Shown here piece by piece: positions 2,475 through 32,200 of a stretch of 34,490 bases of DNA. The stretch lies in contig JALXCB010000182.1 of assembly GCA_026991225.1 (NCBI GenBank), positions 1 through 34,490 on the forward strand, in the 5' to 3' direction. The notes below the pieces were generated by a model that was given only the letters and a program-made list of their open reading frames with translations, was not told where the DNA came from and searched no databases. This DNA comes from Anaerolineae bacterium (GTDB taxonomy: Bacteria; Chloroflexota; Anaerolineae; J102). Every line of letters begins with the position of its first letter. The stretch's first letter is position 1. The position numbers and the translations under genes are program-made.

Positions 2475-3833
2475 ATGCAGTCACGTAACAACATTATCCT
2501 CGTCATTCTCATTTTGCTTGTGGCTTTGGCGACCTACATCGCCCTGCCCATCGACCATCCCGATTGGTTCAAAAACATTGTGGCGCCTCATCAGAAGGGG
2601 GATCCCAACGCTTTGACGTTGCGTTTGGGGCTCGACTTACGGGGCGGCACCCAGATTCAGCTCCAACCCGACCTGCCCGAAGGGCAGACGGCCACGGAAG
2701 ATGACCTGGATCGGGCGCGGGCCATCATCGAACGCCGCGTCAACGGCCTGGGCGTCAACGAATCCCTGGTGCAGACGGGCAAGGACCGCATCATCGTCGC
2801 CCTGCCCGGCGTCGAGGACCCGGACGCCGCCATCGAGACTCTGCGCGGCACGGGCCAGCTCGAATTCGTCGATCTGGGAGACAATCCTGATCGGCTGGGG
2901 GCTGGCGATCAGATCAACACGACCCTGGGCCCTGCGCCCAATCCCGTCAACGACAAGGTCTATACGACCGTCATGACGGGCGACAAGTTGAAGAATGTGG
3001 ATGTGCGCCGCGACCCCAACACCCAAAAGCCCTACATTGCCTTCGAATTGACCAAAGAGGGTTCGGAGATATTCGGGAAGTATTCCGGGGAAAATATCGG
3101 CAAATACCTGGCCATTGTCATGGACAAGACCATCCTCTCCGCTCCCGTGATTCAGGCCAAGATCACCGATGCGGGCCAGATCACCGGCAATTTCACGCTG
3201 GATGAGGCTCAGAACTTGGCTATCCAGATGAAGTATGGCGCCCTGCCCGTGCCCTTGGAGGTCGTGGACGTCCGCACGGTGGGGCCTTCCCTGGGCGAGG
3301 ACTCCATCCGTCGCAGTCTGTTGGCCGGGACGATTGGCATCATTGTTGTGCTCCTGTTCATGTTGGCCTTCTATCGTCTGCCGGGCTTCATCGCCGACCT
3401 GGCCCTCCTGAGCTTCGTCTCCTTCAACATTGCCCTCTACAAAATCATCCCGGTGGTGTTGACATTGCCCGGCATCGCCGGTTTTCTGCTCACGACTGGC
3501 ACCGCCGTGGATGCAAACATCCTTATCTTCGAGCGTATGCGGGAAGAACTGCGAGCGGGGCGGTCTTTGCCCAGCGCCGTGGAAGCGGGTTTCTCCCGAG
3601 CATGGACCTCCATCCTCGACTCCAACCTCTCCACCATCCTCACGGGCCTCATTCTCCTCTACTTCGGCTCCAACTTCGGCGCCACCGTGGTCAAAGGCTT
3701 TGCCATCACCCTGATCATCGGCGTGCTCGTCTCCATGTTCACGGCAGTCTTTGCCACCCGCACCTTCATGCGCTTCTTGATCCAATACTTCGCCGAACCA
3801 CTCAAGTCCAAACTCTCCTGGTTCAGCATCTAA
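2475..3833 (+). CDS. secD: Protein translocase subunit SecD
   Basis: A 452-residue SecD, the RND-type partner of SecYEG that uses the proton-motive force to help pull exported proteins across the membrane. Evidence: an N-terminal membrane segment (about 6-24), the signature LGLDLRGG (51-58), a periplasmic P1-type domain with 'RAIIERRVNGLGVNE', and a C-terminal block of five membrane segments from about residue 285, including 'TAVDANILIFERMREE' and the conserved 'GFSRAWTSILDSN'. It is shorter than E. coli SecD (about 615), as in many Gram-positive and Chloroflexota forms with a compact P1 domain. ATG 2475 has AAGGA about 7 bases upstream. It has its own strong promoter. Its TAA stop coincides with the left inverted repeat of the element that separates it from secF. 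Confidence 0.95.
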   Translation: MQSRNNIILVILILLVALATYIALPIDHPDWFKNIVAPHQKGDPNALTLRLGLDLRGGTQIQLQPDLPEGQTATEDDLDRARAIIERRVNGLGVNESLVQTGKDRIIVALPGVEDPDAAIETLRGTGQLEFVDLGDNPDRLGAGDQINTTLGPAPNPVNDKVYTTVMTGDKLKNVDVRRDPNTQKPYIAFELTKEGSEIFGKYSGENIGKYLAIVMDKTILSAPVIQAKITDAGQITGNFTLDEAQNLAIQMKYGALPVPLEVVDVRTVGPSLGEDSIRRSLLAGTIGIIVVLLFMLAFYRLPGFIADLALLSFVSFNIALYKIIPVVLTLPGIAGFLLTTGTAVDANILIFERMREELRAGRSLPSAVEAGFSRAWTSILDSNLSTILTGLILLYFGSNFGATVVKGFAITLIIGVLVSMFTAVFATRTFMRFLIQYFAEPLKSKLSWFSI

Positions 3834-4073
3834 ACTGAAAGCAAATTGAAACCAAGGCTTTTGGTTTGCATTGGATCATCCATGAAAGGCGATTCTCTGG
3901 CCGCGCTGCCGCCCGCAGGTGAACCTGCGGGCTAAAAACGACGCCCCATAAATGGGGCTATGACGCATGTCGCGCGCCGCGGGAAGCCGGGTTCACCCGG
4001 CGTCGTTTCGTAGCCCGGAGCTTCAGCTCCGGGTGGCCGAGGCCGAAAACACCTGATTTCAAAATGCGTTTAG
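3830..4073. repeat. Hairpin-chain repeat with terminal inverted repeats, inserted between secD and secF
   Basis: The ends form an imperfect inverted repeat: CTAAAC...GCAAATTGAAACCA at 3830-3856 against the complement of TGATTTCAAAATGCGTTTAG at 4054-4073. Inside is a chain of hairpins: CCCGCAG/CTGCGGG (3912-3932), CCCCAT/ATGGGG (3942-3957), GCCGGG-ttca-CCCGGC (about 3988-4003) and CCCGGAG/CTCCGGG (4014-4034). 'GTAGCCCGGAGNTTCANCTCCGGG'-like wording recurs at 21252-21277. I find no clear target duplication here, unlike the two related elements at 13503 and 21095. No gene is present in 3834-4132. Confidence 0.65.
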
Positions 4074-4132
4074 TTTAAAACCGATTTTTATTGCCAATTG
4101 TCATCTGATTTCTGAATACTGGACATTGTCCC

Positions 4133-5141: not shown

Positions 5142-5346
5142 AACTGCTTTGAAAATAGCGTTGCGTTGGTTTGCAAAAATGACTTGGAGCCCCCGTTGGG
5201 CGAGTTTGCCACGGGCGTGATGCGTAATCCGTAATCCGTGAGGTCATTACGCATCACGCATTACGCATTACGTGCTTGGCTTCTCGCGCTGCCCTGGCCG
5301 CGCGGCGTTTTCATTCGTATCGGCGAGCTTCCGCTCGTGTCGCCTG
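5142..5346 (+). repeat. Modular palindromic element D (CGTAATCC-word core)
   Basis: The left end AACTGCTTTGAAAATAG (5142-5158) is identical to that of element A. It continues as 'cgttgcgttggtttgcaaaaatgac' plus 'cgttgggcgagtttgcc', into a palindromic core built from GTAATCC words on one side and ATTACGC words on the other (about 5218-5272). After 'cttctcgcgctgccctggccgcg' comes the right end with GGCGAGC-ttcc-GCTCG and GTGTCGCCTG (ending 5346). It begins 7 bases after the secF terminator and ends 11 bases before the dehydrogenase ATG. Element H (31993-32200) matches along its whole length. Confidence 0.8.
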
Positions 5347-13493: not shown

Positions 13494-13708
13494 ATTTCTT
13501 TTGGGTGTGTCCTTTTTCGGTTGAAGCGTTGCACCGCTGTTCTCATCGACTAAAGTCGGACTCTTAAGGCCTGCGGCCAGTGGACGGCCTTCGCCGTCCC
13601 ATGTTCCGGTCGACGGAGGTCGACCACGGGCGCGAAGCGCCTAAAACGCCCGAGTTCACTCGGCCAGGACGCTGATGCCAACTCATTTGGGACGCACCCA
13701 TTTCTTTT
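13494..13708. mobile_element. MITE-like element copy 1 with 9-bp target duplication
   Basis: The element proper spans 13503-13699 (197 bp). The left end GGGTGTGTCC (13503-13512) and right end GGACGCACCC (13690-13699) are terminal inverted repeats. ATTTCTTTT occurs directly on both sides (13494-13502 and 13700-13708), an exact 9-bp target duplication. The inside is a chain of short hairpins: CGACT/AGTCG, GGACGGC/GCCGTCC, GGTCGAC/GTCGACC, GGCGC/GCGCC and CCGAG/CTCGG (13547-13664). There is no open frame for a transposase, so it is non-autonomous. It lies in the gap 13416-13820 upstream of the ffh promoter. Confidence 0.8.
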
Positions 13709-18024: not shown

Positions 18025-20484
18025 ATGCGTCAAAAACGAATTCCTCTCATCCTCGCGCTTCTGGCCCTGCTTTTGATGGTGTTGCTGGCGGGTTGCAGCA
18101 AGCAAGAAGAGCAGCCTCAGGCGGGCGTCACGCCCGTGGCCACGTCGCCGAGCAATCTACCCGCGCCGGGGCCGGACGAAAGCGCCGTCCCCCAGACCAT
18201 CATCGTCAAGACCGAACTGCGCCCCGCCATTGACCCCGCTTGTACGCAAGCTCAGGGCAAATTCGCACTGGTCAGTGCGCCCTTGCCCGAGGGCGGCCTG
18301 GAGCCGGGCATGGTGCACGTCTTCTGTGCGGTGGGCGCGCCCGCCGATGAGACCGTGACCTTCACCCTGAAATCGCCCGATGGCCAGACTCAGACCTTCC
18401 AGGCGCCCAGCGTGGACCAGGGCGGCGTCTATGTGGCCGTCCAGCCCATCACCATCGGCGCAGACGCCAAATCGGGCAAGTGGACGCTGACCGCGTCGTA
18501 TGGGGACCAGTCGGACAGTCTGGATTTCGAGGTGAAGCCTGCGAGCCAGCCGTTCGTCGTGCTGGCCGAGCCTGTGCCCGAAGACCCTGCCATCATCAAG
18601 GCGGCGGTGGGAGGATTGGCTCCCAACGCCATGGTGCACTTCGCGGTCTATCGTCTGCAGCCGGGCCAGACCGAGGGCAACGTGGCCACCTCGCAGGGGG
18701 AATTGCTCATCGAGAATTTGATCCAGGTGGATGAAGAAGGCCGGGCGGATGTCCAGCTCGATGTGGCGGACCAGCCCAGCGGCCCCTATCTCCTGGCCAT
18801 CTTCCCGCCCGACCAGCCCGCGGCGGCCACCACGGTCATCGAACTGCCCCAGCAGGAGCGATCCGTGGTGGCGGTCAATATCCGCCGCGAGGGCGCAGGG
18901 ACCCCGCCGGGAGCGACGACGGAGCCCGGTTCGCCAGTCGCGCCCTCCCAGCCCGTGGTCTTCGACCGCAGCAATCTGCCTCCCGACCCGACTCTGGCGG
19001 AGGGCAGCGGCGGCCTGCCCGACACGGTGACCTTCGACGTGAAGGACGCCTCCCTGCCCGCCTGCGTCCCCACGGCGTCGCCTGTGATTCGCTTCTGGCC
19101 GGCGACGGGGCAGGTGGGGCAGTGGTGGTATGGCTGCGCCTCGGGCTTCGCGCCCAACACGCCCCTGCGGGTGGACGCCACCCTGGGCAATGGTTCGACA
19201 ACGTCCTTCGATCTGACCGCGACGAATGAGCAGGGCGTCAAGTCCTTCCGCTGGTACGCGCTTCCCTCGGAGGGGACGGGCAAATTCACCGCGGCCATCT
19301 CCGATCCCTCCGGCAATCGGGCGCAGATCGCCTGGCGCATTGCACCGGCCAAGATCCCTCACGTGTTGGTTTACCCCCACGTGGTGCTCAAGGATGTGGG
19401 ATCCGACCTGATTCTGGCCGGATTCAAGCCTCGCCAGCAGGTGCAGATGGGCCTCTATCGCATCGAGGGGAACACAGGCGCGAAGGTGACCGCCTTCAAG
19501 GTCAAAGCGGACAAGAACGGCGTGCTGCAACGGCCCTTCGACCAGGCCCAAGACCTGGAGCCGGGCGTTTACGGTCTGCTGGCCCAGAGTGCGCCCACCT
19601 ACAACTTTGCGGGCATCGATGCGCCCGCCACCGCCATCGAGTTTTTCAGCGTGGGAACGCCTCTGCCCGAAAAGTACGAGCTCTACACCCTGTTCCTGGG
19701 ACGCTCTGGCGGTCAATTGGTCATCAGCACGGAGAAGGAAGAGGCCGCAACGCCCGCGGAGACGCCTTCCGGCCCCAGCGCCTCGGGCATCCCCGCCACC
19801 CTCGCCATCCCGGCTGACAACAGCCAGCCCCCGACCTGCCCCGATGCGCAGGCGGGCCAGCCCGCCATCTGCATGATGCCCGACGTCACCCAGCGGGCGA
19901 CCTATGTCTACATGCTCATGCACGACTTCAAGCCGGGTGCGAAATTCGTCATCGCCGTGACCACGCCCACGGGCAAAACCGTCAAATTCAAGGCCCAGGC
20001 CAACCAGGATGGCCTCGCGGACGCGCACTGGTACGCGCTGAACAACGAAAAGCTGGGCGCGTATCGCGTGAAGATTCGCGGGGGCGGCAAGACGTTCAAT
20101 GGCGTGTTCAAGGTCGTGAAAGCCACGTCGCCCCATATCGTGGTGCAGCCCCGCTCGCCCGAGCCGGGCACGGGCATGTACATCAGCATCAGCGGCCTCA
20201 AGCCCAACACGACCTACGTGGTGGCCCGCTACCGCAGCGTGGGCGAAAGCGGCGGTCAGGTGCAGTTCGAGCTGATGGATACGACCGACATGACCACAGG
20301 CAAGGGCGGCGGCGCGCAGGAAACCTTCCGCGTGGGCAAGGAGGAAGCCGGGACCCTGTTCCTGGCCGCGGTCTACGAAAAGGACGGCTCCCAGCCCCTG
20401 GCGAAAGAGGTGTACGCGCCGGGCCAGGACCTCTACCTGCGCTATCCTTTCGCCTGGGGTCAGAACTCGCAGGAAGGGAATTGA
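18025..20484 (+). CDS. Large lipoprotein with three internal beta-domain repeats
   Basis: 819 residues. A signal peptide with lipobox LLAG-C gives lipidation at C24, followed by a proline/serine-rich spacer. Three similar modules are visible at about residues 72-200, 345-460 and 620-715. Each opens with a cysteine pair (DPAC...VFCAVG; LPAC...YGCASG; PPTC...AICMMP), then a strand such as 'VTFTLKSPDG', 'LRVDATLGNG' or 'FVIAVTTPTG', then 'WYAL' and a proline-led 'PHVLV'/'PHIVV' exit. Between them are MG2-like domains, for example 'ILAGFKPRQQVQMGLYRI'. ATG 18025 has a strong GGAGG 8 bases upstream. The stop overlaps the uracil-DNA glycosylase start (TGATG). No enzymatic motif was found; it is probably a cell-surface structural or binding protein. 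Confidence 0.8.
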   Translation: MRQKRIPLILALLALLLMVLLAGCSKQEEQPQAGVTPVATSPSNLPAPGPDESAVPQTIIVKTELRPAIDPACTQAQGKFALVSAPLPEGGLEPGMVHVFCAVGAPADETVTFTLKSPDGQTQTFQAPSVDQGGVYVAVQPITIGADAKSGKWTLTASYGDQSDSLDFEVKPASQPFVVLAEPVPEDPAIIKAAVGGLAPNAMVHFAVYRLQPGQTEGNVATSQGELLIENLIQVDEEGRADVQLDVADQPSGPYLLAIFPPDQPAAATTVIELPQQERSVVAVNIRREGAGTPPGATTEPGSPVAPSQPVVFDRSNLPPDPTLAEGSGGLPDTVTFDVKDASLPACVPTASPVIRFWPATGQVGQWWYGCASGFAPNTPLRVDATLGNGSTTSFDLTATNEQGVKSFRWYALPSEGTGKFTAAISDPSGNRAQIAWRIAPAKIPHVLVYPHVVLKDVGSDLILAGFKPRQQVQMGLYRIEGNTGAKVTAFKVKADKNGVLQRPFDQAQDLEPGVYGLLAQSAPTYNFAGIDAPATAIEFFSVGTPLPEKYELYTLFLGRSGGQLVISTEKEEAATPAETPSGPSASGIPATLAIPADNSQPPTCPDAQAGQPAICMMPDVTQRATYVYMLMHDFKPGAKFVIAVTTPTGKTVKFKAQANQDGLADAHWYALNNEKLGAYRVKIRGGGKTFNGVFKVVKATSPHIVVQPRSPEPGTGMYISISGLKPNTTYVVARYRSVGESGGQVQFELMDTTDMTTGKGGGAQETFRVGKEEAGTLFLAAVYEKDGSQPLAKEVYAPGQDLYLRYPFAWGQNSQEGN

Positions 20485-21089
20485 TGGCGGACGAGCTTGC
20501 CCGCATCCAGTTGCAAATCCGAGCCTGTCAGCGCTGCGCGCTGGCAGGCTTTCCCATCCAGGGCCCGCCCATCTTCTCCGGCCATGCCGACGCCCGGCTC
20601 ATGGTCATCGGCCAGGCGCCGGGCAAGGTGGAAGCGAACACGACCCACCAGCCCTTCAGCGGCAATGCAGGCAAACGCCTGTTTCGCTGGTTCAAGCAGG
20701 TGGGCTGGGAGGAGGCGGAGTTCCGGGCGAAGTTCTACATGACTTCAGTGACCAAATGCTTTCCAGGCCCCAACAAATCGGGGCGGGGCGACCGCGCGCC
20801 CTCGCGCAAGGAGCAGCAGTTGTGCGAGGAGTGGCTGCTGGCCGAGATCGCGCTGGTGGACCCGGAGGTGGTCGTGCCCGTGGGCAAGATGGCTATCGAA
20901 CGCTTTTTCGGGCGGGGACGCCGGCTGGATGAGATCATCGGCGGTCGCTATCAGATTGATGGACGGATCGTGATCCCTCTGCCGCATCCCTCGGGCGCGT
21001 CCGCCTGGATTCAGAAACGGGAGCATCAGGTTCTCATCAGCCGGGCGCTGGGGCATCTGGCCGTGGTAAAGGCGGAGCTGGGGCTTTGA
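20484..21089 (+). CDS. Uracil-DNA glycosylase, family 4-like with Fe-S cluster
   Basis: 201 residues. It removes uracil from DNA as the first step of base-excision repair. Motif A is GQAPGKVE...QPFSGNAG (43-63), where most family 4 members have GEAPG; the motif B equivalent is HPSGAS (168-173). Four cysteines, C15 and C18 (ACQRC), C92 (TKC) and C114 (QLC), fit the 4Fe-4S ligands of this family. ATG 20484 is chosen (TGATG overlap with the lipoprotein stop, GGAAGGGA 4 bases upstream); the TTG at 20481 would add only one residue. An insertion 'GPNKSGRGDRAP' follows C92. Its TGA stop lies inside the 9-bp target duplication of the MITE-like element that follows. Confidence 0.85.
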   Translation: MADELARIQLQIRACQRCALAGFPIQGPPIFSGHADARLMVIGQAPGKVEANTTHQPFSGNAGKRLFRWFKQVGWEEAEFRAKFYMTSVTKCFPGPNKSGRGDRAPSRKEQQLCEEWLLAEIALVDPEVVVPVGKMAIERFFGRGRRLDEIIGGRYQIDGRIVIPLPHPSGASAWIQKREHQVLISRALGHLAVVKAELGL

Positions 21090-21321
21090 TGACGGGGTGC
21101 GTCCTAAATTTTGGGCAAATCGCGTTGTCATCAGGAATTCGGTCATGCAGGTTCCAACCGGCGCTGAAGCGCCGGGCTACAAAACAACGCCGGGTGAACC
21201 CGGCTTTTGGCGCGGGCTGGCTCTGAAAGCCCCCTTGAGGGGGCGTCATTTCTAGCCCGGAGGTTCACCTCCGGGGCACCAGGCGCAACGCGCCAAAATT
21301 TGGGACGCCCCCTTGATGACG
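21086..21321. mobile_element. MITE-like element copy 2 with 9-bp target duplication
   Basis: The element proper spans 21095-21312 (218 bp). The left end GGGTGCGTCCTAAATTTTGG (21095-21114) and the complement of the right end (21312-21293) differ at only two positions. TTGATGACG occurs directly on both sides (21086-21094 and 21313-21321). The inside is again a hairpin chain: CCGGCGC-tgaa-GCGCCGG, CCGGG/CCCGG, CCCCC/GGGGG and CCCGGAGG-ttca-CCTCCGGGG. There is no transposase. The target duplication includes the TGA stop of the glycosylase gene, so insertion at this spot preserved the protein. The element also lies just upstream of the folC promoter. Confidence 0.88.
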
Positions 21322-21328
21322 CGACAGC

Positions 21329-21358
21329 TTGCCGCCTTTTACCCAATTGGGATACAAT
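21329..21358 (+). promoter_or_regulatory. Sigma-70-type promoter for folC
   Basis: TTGCCG (21329-21334), an 18-base spacer, and TACAAT (21353-21358). The predicted start near 21365 leaves a 20-base leader before ATG 21385. The promoter begins 8 bases after the MITE-like element's right target duplication. Confidence 0.6.
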
Positions 21359-21384
21359 GAAGGGCCCTCTCATACGGTTTCCCC

Positions 21385-22773
21385 ATGACAGACGACGCTT
21401 ACGCCCGCACCCTGCGGGAGATCTTCGCTCACGTCGATTATAGCCGCAGCCGTCAGCATCCCTACAACGCCGAGACCTACAATCTCGACCGGATGTGGGC
21501 GCTGATGCGACTTCTGGGCGATCCGCAGGATGCGTTTCCTTCCATCCATATCGCGGGCAGCAAGGGCAAGGGCTCCACGTCGGCGATGACCTCATCCATC
21601 TTGCAAGCCGCGGGGCGTCGCACAGGCCTCTATACCTCCCCCCATCTCCACACCTTTCGCGAACGCATCCGCATCGACGGCGCGTTCATCGCCCGCGAGC
21701 GGCTCATCAGCCTGTGGGATGAGCTCAAACCCGTCATCGCCCGCCTGCCCCGCACGACCACCTTCGAGATCATCACCGCACTGGCCTTCATGGATTTCTC
21801 CCGCCCGCCCGTGGACATGGCGGTCATCGAGGTGGGTTTGGGCGGTCGATTGGACGCCACCAACGTGATCACGCCCCAGGCCTGCGCCATCACCGCCCTC
21901 AGCCTGGAACACACCGACCTGCTGGGGGATAACATCGCCGCCATCGCAGGCGAGAAGGCGGGCATCATCAAGCCGGGCGCGCCCGTAGTGACGGGCCCGC
22001 AGCCTCCCGAGGCCATGGCCGTCATCGAACGGGCCGCGGCTGCGGCCGGGGCTCCGTTGATCCGCGTGGGCCAGGACTGGCGGTGGGCGATTCGCGAGCT
22101 CGCGCCCGACGGCCTGCGGCTTGACATCTACGGCCCAGATAGTACCATTAAGGAAGCCTTCGTTCCCCTCACGGGCGAGCATCAGGCTGTCAATGCCGCC
22201 ATTGCCGTGGCCCTCGTGCACGCCCTGGATGATCCCCGGATATCGGAGGACGTCATTCGCCAGGGACTGGCCCGTACCTACTGGCCCGGACGTCTGGAAA
22301 TGCTCTCCCATCGCCCCGCCATCCTGCTGGACAGCGCCCATACGCGCGACAGCGCCACCCGCCTGCGCAACGCCCTTCGCCTCTTTCCCCACCAGAGGCT
22401 CATCCTCCTCTTCGGCGCTTCTGCGGACAAGGATATCGCCGGGATGCTGGCGATCTTGGGCGAAGACGCCGACGCCATCATTCTCACTCGCAGCTTTCAT
22501 CCCCGGGCAGCGAACCCCAGCCGACTCTATGCCGCCGCCCGCGGCATCTTCCCCGAGAAAGCGCTGTACATCACTGGAGACGCCGCACCGGGCCTGGAAC
22601 AGGCCCTCTCCCTGGCCGAAGAGGAGGACCTCATCTTGGCGAGCGGCTCCATCTTCGTCGTGGCCGCGGTTCGGGAAGCGTGGGCCCGTCTCCATCCCCA
22701 GGCCCTCCCTCCCGACGATTGGGCCTTCTTCGCCGAGCCCATCGACGGCCAGTTTACGCCGATGCTGTCCTGA
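21385..22773 (+). CDS. folC: Bifunctional folylpolyglutamate synthase / dihydrofolate synthase
   Basis: A 462-residue Mur-ligase-family enzyme that adds glutamate to dihydropteroate and/or folates, trapping folate in the cell. Motifs: the ATP loop 'HIAGSKGKGSTSAM', 'GLYTSPHLHTFRERI', 'AVIEVGLGGRLDATN', 'SLEHTDLLGDNIAAIAGEKAGIIK', and the C-terminal domain 'WPGRLEML', 'LLDSAHTRDSA' and 'LLFGASADKDI'. Canonical FolC has HIAGTNGKGS; the S-K substitution here is seen in some lineages. ATG 21385 is used with a short leader and a weak Shine-Dalgarno sequence. It appears monocistronic. Its TGA stop (22771-22773) lies in the left end of repeat element F. Confidence 0.93.
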   Translation: MTDDAYARTLREIFAHVDYSRSRQHPYNAETYNLDRMWALMRLLGDPQDAFPSIHIAGSKGKGSTSAMTSSILQAAGRRTGLYTSPHLHTFRERIRIDGAFIARERLISLWDELKPVIARLPRTTTFEIITALAFMDFSRPPVDMAVIEVGLGGRLDATNVITPQACAITALSLEHTDLLGDNIAAIAGEKAGIIKPGAPVVTGPQPPEAMAVIERAAAAAGAPLIRVGQDWRWAIRELAPDGLRLDIYGPDSTIKEAFVPLTGEHQAVNAAIAVALVHALDDPRISEDVIRQGLARTYWPGRLEMLSHRPAILLDSAHTRDSATRLRNALRLFPHQRLILLFGASADKDIAGMLAILGEDADAIILTRSFHPRAANPSRLYAAARGIFPEKALYITGDAAPGLEQALSLAEEEDLILASGSIFVVAAVREAWARLHPQALPPDDWAFFAEPIDGQFTPMLS

Positions 22774-22930
22774 AAAGAGCGTTGCGATGGTTTGCAAAAA
22801 CGGCTCCACGCCGACGCTGGCCGAGGCGGCAACCGACGTGAAACGTCAAACGTGAAACGTCATGCCCTCACGCATCACGTTTCACTCGTCACGTCTTCGG
22901 CTTCCCGCGCCAATCTGGCTGGCAAGGGCT
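22769..22930 (+). repeat. Modular palindromic element F (CGTGAAACG-word core)
   Basis: The left part 'cctgaaaagagcgttgcgat' plus 'ggtttgcaaaaacg' aligns with 'ctttgaaaatagcgttgcgt' plus 'tggtttgcaaaaat' of element D. The flanks 'gacgctggccgag' and 'cccgcgccaatctggc' match the inner flanks of D and H. The core (about 22835-22895), however, consists of GACGTGAAACGTC words against CGTTTCAC/GTCACGTC, unrelated to the GTAATCC core of D. It lies between the folC stop and the lon ATG. Confidence 0.7.
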
Positions 22931-28184: not shown

Positions 28185-28317
28185 ACCACGATCGCGAAAC
28201 GTAATGCGTGATGCGTAAGGTCGCCACGGATTACGGAATACGCATTACGTCCGTTGCAGACTCGCCCAATGCAGGCTTCAAGTCCCTTTTACAAATCAAC
28301 GCAACGCTATTTCGGAA
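28185..28317 (-). repeat. Modular palindromic element G, reverse orientation (CGTAATGCG-word core)
   Basis: Read on the minus strand: 'gttccgaaatagcgttgcgt' (from 28317), 'gatttgtaaaagggacttg', 'attgggcgagtctgcaac', then a core of 'cgtaatgcgtattccgtaat' against 'cttacgcatcacgcattacg'. This is the left half of elements D and H. The right terminal module is not recognisable. It lies directly upstream of yqeY, in the opposite orientation to D and H, with the yqeY ribosome-binding site (CAGGAG, 28318-28323) adjoining it. The gap 28138-28329 holds nothing else. Confidence 0.65.
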
Positions 28318-32000: not shown

Positions 32001-32200
32001 AGATAGCTTTGCGCTCGTCTACAAAAATCAACCCAAAGCCAGTGTTGGGCGAGTCTGCAATTGGCGTGATGCGTAATCCGTAATCCGTGAGGTCGTTACG
32101 CATCACGCATCACGCATTACGGGATTAGCTTCCCGCGCCAACGTTGGCCGTGAGGCGTTTTCGTCCGAATCAGCATGCTGTCGTTCGCGTCGCTTGCTCT
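31993..32200 (+). repeat. Modular palindromic element H (GTAATCC-word core)
   Basis: It aligns with element D over its full length: left 'ttactttgaagatagctttg' plus 'cgctcgtctacaaaaat', 'gtgttgggcgagtctgc', core 'gcgtaatccgtaatccgtg' against 'catcacgcatcacgcattac' (32070-32121), 'cgccaacgttggcc', and a degenerate right end 'cagcatgctgtcgttcgc' plus 'gtcgcttgc'. It spans from within the dgkA stop codon to 8 bases before the methyltransferase ATG. The ORF extension of the methyltransferase to 32175 is part of this element. Confidence 0.75.

Follow-up and report, generated by a model that had tools for sequence, protein, structure and literature searches.

A promoter-spaced miniature element with ISKra4-type ends and an IS200-type (Y1) hairpin core in an Anaerolineae genome

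Some members of the ISKra4 group of insertion sequences insert upstream of sigma-A promoters, where they produce target duplications of 8-9 bp and leave the promoter 13-17 bp from the inverted repeat (IR). Where the IRs are nearly symmetrical, promoters are found on either side of the elements; MITEs are not mentioned in that work (PMC3942029). The REPIN/BIME elements and the GTAG-tagged REP families with RAYT or IS200-type Y1 transposases carry an inverted pair of tagged palindromes, and the same hairpins flank the Y1 genes with tandem arrays adjoining (PMC2817692, PMC3116915, PMC3733652). The IS630-derived bacterial MITEs (Correia, RUP) are short, gene-less, high-copy elements of the DDE type. 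They duplicate a TA, and their ends are unrelated to those of the element described here. In the literature searched, mostly papers outside subscription, we came across no account of bacterial MITEs targeted to promoters, of MITEs with REPIN-type cores from several Y1 transposases, or of an ISKra4-type MITE combined with a REPIN core, including in Chloroflexi.

The window, the whole stretch of DNA that was analysed, is 34,490 nucleotides long and is contig C182 of a 3.87-Mb Anaerolineae genome (97% complete, 201 contigs). The following features are referred to below.

3833..4075, no strand: second, unrelated MITE shell with ends AACTGAAAGC / AACTAAACGC, TA-flanked, type A core
13494-13502 and 13700-13708: target duplication ATTTCTTTT of copy 1
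13503..13699, no strand: copy 1 of the first-pass annotation, sister subfamily with type B core, terminal inverted repeats GGGTGTGTCCTTTTTCGG / GGGTGCGTCCCAAATGAG
20481..21089, + strand: uracil-DNA glycosylase (UDG) superfamily gene, 202 aa (PF03167, E 1e-30)
21086..21094, no strand: left target duplication TTGATGACG, including the UDG stop TGA at 21087-21089
21095..21312, no strand: MITE of 218 bp, read as ISKra4-type and REPIN-cored, type A; the genome holds about 50 relatives, of which most have 9-bp duplications
21095..21118, + strand: left terminal inverted repeat GGGTGCGTCCTAAATTTTGGGCAA; across 22 bp the ISKra4 IS end in L095 is the same as the consensus of 104 MITE ends
21158..21276 (about), - strand: miniature Y1 (IS200-type) core, about 120 bp, four hairpins
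21289..21312, - strand: right terminal inverted repeat GGGGGCGTCCCAAATTTTGGCGCG (reverse complement)
21313..21321, no strand: right target duplication TTGATGACG, identical to the left one
21329..21358, + strand: folC promoter TTGCCG-18-TACAAT, whose -35 box begins 16 bp beyond the element/genome junction
21385..22773, + strand: folC-like gene, with Mur-ligase domains as in FolC

With a probability of about 0.86, we read the 218-bp element as a non-autonomous MITE that has ISKra4-type ends and a miniature Y1 interior, was mobilised in trans by a DDE transposase of the ISKra4 group with a 9-bp duplication, and sits at a set distance from a promoter. This reading is carried by what the sequences show: the 9-bp duplications, the termini held in common with an ISKra4 element of the genus, the promoter spacing, the identity between the core and the flanks of Y1 genes, and an empty site.

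A genome search with the 218-bp element returned 53 matches, the majority full-length and with 85-95% identity. Alignment of the flanks showed perfect 9-bp duplications at most full-length copies, with sequences differing between copies. No full-length copy carried an exact duplication of another length, except for two 9-mers in which the outermost base was changed. All fetched loci were furthermore scanned for paired termini, yielding 52 segments of 68-602 bp (composites included) bounded by the termini and a 9-bp duplication, 38 of which agreed at 9/9 and 14 at 8/9 positions; in the shifted control, four shifts of 3867 end pairs produced 9 hits. A 61-bp element with matching termini and duplication TTGTCGATC was seen in a Caldilineaceae MAG (L091 1526-1586) and is perhaps the smallest form of the shell. 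The contig ends, where a truncated autonomous copy was sought, gave MITE pieces only.

The first-pass annotation had described a 218-bp unit between identical TTGATGACG duplications, with ends matching at 18 of 20 positions, and had interpreted it as a MITE. The sequence bears out the description (the ends are GGGTGCGTCCTAAATTTTGG and, reverse-complemented, GGGGGCGTCCCAAATTTTGG), and the interpretation is upheld by the roughly 50 genome relatives, the 52 units with a 9-bp duplication and the empty site in a relative. Absent or variable duplications, which it had named as evidence against itself, were looked for genome-wide, and the length of 9 bp was constant over the 52 units.

The empty site was found in the closest member of the genus (G002, locus L175), where the UDG and folC genes are adjacent without an insert; UDG ends in TGTGACGGCTTGGC and folC comes next. 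Orthologues of the window's UDG are present in seven genus members (75-89% identical), and the -10 region GGGATA(A/C)AAT upstream of folC is kept in relatives. As had been claimed, the TGA of UDG lies inside the duplicated target; since the stop codon is thereby kept, the reading frame is unchanged by the insertion. The placement of the hairpins between the UDG gene and the folC promoter was likewise confirmed, the promoter being the sole promoter-like site within 20900-21500. From this arrangement it is plausible that the hairpins shield the folC promoter from UDG read-through.

Fourteen type A copies differed by a mean of 4% from their consensus and by 6.8% pairwise. Their duplications carry just 4 mismatches in 126 positions, so that a large part of the divergence among copies may be older than their insertion.

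The core consists of two inverted (G/C)TAG-tagged palindromes, with GTAG at 21180-21177 on the - strand and CTAG at 21252-21255 on the + strand. When 14 type A cores from five genomes were aligned, the inverted tagged pair was recovered with an invariant GTAG; the second palindrome has a variable tag (CTAG, TTAG, GTAG, CAG), and four predicted pairs show changes on both sides. On contig C128, a Y1 (IS200-like) transposase gene has tandem units next to it that match core A, and the gene is itself enclosed by the two halves of the module, the left one (element positions 131-183) and the right one (64-97). For copy 1, joining the left and right ends that surround the Y1 gene of C167 reproduces the core, which is also found beside Y1 on C23. 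The same hairpin halves flank the Y1 genes at C128 (L068) and at C23 and C167 (L066, L067); Y1 genes that look intact are present in the genome. Of the 52 units, 27 carry core A and 21 carry core B, the other 4 having neither, so that 48/52 match one of two Y1 families. A third core, in 120-bp units, gave no more than weak, suggestive matches of 14-24 bp when compared with the Y1 gene of C112.

Judged by its sequence, the core is REPIN/BIME-like, consisting of the two hairpin ends, left and right, of a Y1 (HUH) transposon that lacks the gene. In contrast to REPIN/BIME, it is enclosed in DDE-type termini with target duplications. The C128 and C23 Y1 proteins score above the cut-off for NF033573 (IS200/IS605), and the REP-transposase model NF047646 was absent or below its cut-off in these two proteins. 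'REPIN-like' therefore refers to anatomy and not to formal membership. With a miniature IS200-type (Y1) element forming the interior of an ISKra4-type MITE, this is a nesting of two unrelated mobile-element systems. A wider picture would be a chimera of two transposases, in which ISKra4 ends deliver REPIN cores in front of promoters, the core also spreads by itself with the help of its own single-strand transposase, several REPIN families have adopted the shell and many promoters gain an upstream insulator; at present we consider this doubtful.

Both strands of the element carry terminator-like hairpins and fold far better than shuffled sequences (z -7.0 and -5.0). This would suit an explanation in which the core was selected by the host as a bidirectional terminator or insulator and Y1 elements captured hairpins from the MITE. 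We regard that order of events as unlikely, as the Y1 gene between the core halves in C128 and C167 is the anatomy of an autonomous Y1 element, and free-standing cores are present in several family members.

In the vicinity of one of these Y1 elements, an N-rich template-like repeat (L141 on C167, about 1970-2430) adjoins a protein ending in a matching GGSWLDF...GFRLVVS stretch, which together look like a diversity-generating retroelement. A core-B Y1 element lies just downstream of the repeat, before a possible reverse-transcriptase C-terminus.

A scan of the collection with the terminal consensus matched five stretches. One of these (L094, HyVt-591), the same locus as G002:C106 in the window's genus, holds a 1463-bp element with both termini. 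The complete IS spans L095 40-1502 (HyVt-591/G002) with ends GGGTGCGTCCCAGATATTTGGCA and GGGTGCGTCCCAAATTATTGGCA, and its 342-aa ORF scores 256 bits to NF033572 transpos_ISKra4 (cut-off 205). The consensus of the 104 MITE ends, GGGTGCGTCCCAAATTATTGGC, is identical over 22 bp to one end of this IS, and the similarity between MITE and IS ends is far above that of shuffled ends. The MITE thus has its termini in common with an autonomous ISKra4 element, which comes from a congener's genome rather than the window's own. Terminal repeats of similar length and a 9-bp duplication, within the 8-9 bp of the group, are further likenesses to ISKra4 (PMC3942029). Unlike the ISKra4 ISs, the MITEs have no transposase gene, are mostly 120-290 bp against about 1.4 kb, and have a Y1-element hairpin interior.

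The ISKra4 element of G002 has no target duplication. Its transposase matches fall in two reading frames (L095 223-459 and 464-1456), which could be either a programmed frameshift or decay. On a Caldilineaceae chromosome (L092) one matching end lies near a nuclease-like gene, and a transposase was not seen there.

No ISKra4 transposase was matched in the window's genome bin (NF033572, E<=0.001; 97% complete, 201 contigs), nor any PF01609 (DDE_Tnp_1), PF00872 (IS256) or PF12762 domain (E<=0.001 for PF01609 and PF00872). Because the window genome gave no transposase match of these families, the ISKra4 partner is deduced from the congener. An ISKra4 transposase would nevertheless have done the moving in this genome; it may have been lost, or be missing through repeat collapse in the assembly. 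The transposase gene between these termini, which the first-pass annotation had proposed to look for, was thus not found in the window genome and was found in a congener as an ISKra4-family IS.

For the partner, the first-pass annotation had named the IS256 or IS4 groups as examples of compatible DDE families. An element of the IS256, IS4 or IS1595 type, with a convergent likeness to ISKra4 ends, would agree with the 8-9 bp duplications and G-rich ends occurring in several DDE families. IS256 is also Mutator-like (p-MULT 1), and IS256 insertions appeared random, the promoter spacing being reported for ISKra4, ISLre2 and TnGBS (PMC3942029). With no PF01609, PF00872 or PF12762 match in the genome and with the 22-bp end identity to an ISKra4 IS of the same genus, we hold such an assignment to be very unlikely, and the earlier suggestion of IS256 or IS4 is replaced by ISKra4.

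Flanks were scored for promoters at each distance from the junction, using TTGACA/TATAAT spaced by 16-19 bp; the calls rest on consensus matching. A single sharp peak was obtained at 14-17 bp from the junction with its maximum at 16 (26% of 93 flanks), most other offsets giving 0-3%. At offsets 14-17 a promoter of at least 8/12 matches was present in 30/35 insertions outside type B (at least one tandem array among these being counted twice), compared with about 5% at control offsets (binomial p ~1e-33). None of 16 type B insertions, including copy 1, had a promoter at this offset, and the flanks of the unrelated TA-flanked MITE in the same genome showed no promoter peak. Insertion 13-17 bp upstream of sigma-A promoters, as in the ISKra4 group, was accordingly confined to type A and related units. 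Promoters occur on both sides of the MITE insertions; insertion about 16 bp upstream of a sigma-A -35 box, on either side of a near-symmetrical element, is a property of ISKra4 elements (PMC3942029).

Intergenic insertions are in general less harmful, and promoter clustering could in principle reflect survivorship after random insertion, with selection against insertions in genes. Selection would not be expected to yield a constant distance of 16 bp to the -35 box, and no such peak exists for type B or for the TA-flanked MITE in the same genome. We consequently give survivorship a very small chance.

IS200/IS605 elements insert with no target duplication. That a Y1 (IS200-type) transposase moves the whole 218-bp unit with the termini as passengers is scarcely credible, in spite of the core matching Y1-gene flanks and of intact-looking Y1 genes being present, since 9-bp duplications abut the GGGTGCGTCC termini in 52 units and contradict such movement, and a further shell, whose ends are unrelated, encloses the same core; the core alone could still move independently.

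Following the ISKra4 reading, an ISKra4-group transposase (prokaryotic Mutator-like, p-MULT 4) would bind both element ends, and the element would be cut out, probably as a circle. It would then be inserted into a staggered cut of 9 bp whose distance from a promoter with bound RNA polymerase is fixed. The -35 box of the sigma-A promoter would end up starting 14-17 bp, mostly 16, beyond one element end, with the hairpins placed between the upstream gene and the promoter. As the literature proposes, the targeting is probably mediated by the RNA polymerase initiation complex. The MITE family supplies dozens of natural insertions at a fixed promoter distance, and target choice by ISKra4 thereby becomes directly testable. 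Furthermore, it offers an explanation for REP-like hairpins just upstream of promoters, with a possible effect on read-through or regulation.

The two copies in the window had earlier been taken as one family. Both are real and have 9-bp duplications, but they belong to different subfamilies, as inner ends, core and target preference rule out that copy 1 is the same element as the 218-bp copy. This split, the IS200-type core and the fixed 16-bp promoter distance were all missing from the first-pass annotation. Type B duplications are AT-rich (76% AT versus 45% outside type B). Because type B has the same outer 10 bp as the 218-bp element without the promoter preference, more than one transposase is probably involved.

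Neighbouring units are usually spaced by exactly 9 bp (10/17 adjacent end pairs). On C166 two units with different cores have the same 9-mer outside and between them, and C15 is nearly so; the 9-mer common to all three sides and the different cores rule out tandem duplication as the sole origin of arrays. Repeated insertion at one promoter-fixed site would fit C166 and C15. On C164 and C194 the outer duplication is not the same as the spacer GAGAGAAAG, which is seen again on C16; this would fit block movement or circular intermediates. Circular intermediates of this superfamily carry 6-10 bp of flanking DNA (PMC3942029). Tandem copies with a 9-bp spacer may hence have arisen by either repeated insertion or circles.

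The TA-flanked MITE at 3833-4075, which is nearer to the IS630-derived MITEs (Correia, RUP), has at least 41 near-full-length copies in the genome (96-99% identical), and its tandem copies are separated by just TA (L173). Since core A also sits in this unrelated shell, cores and shells have been combined more than once. A chimera on C42 (L078, 1-240) has one ISKra4-type and one TA-flanked shell end joined via the common core. In a sister species (G001, L184 615-842) core A lies inside a shell with variant ends GGGTGCGTTYC, and in the window's genome L009 and L172 have core B enclosed by closely similar variant ends.

Additionally, the window has dispersed intergenic repeats at 5209-5280, 22830-22901, 28186-28257, 32058-32129 and 588-630, which are built from short words such as CGTAATGCGTGATGCGTAA and are 65-89% alike to the first copy.
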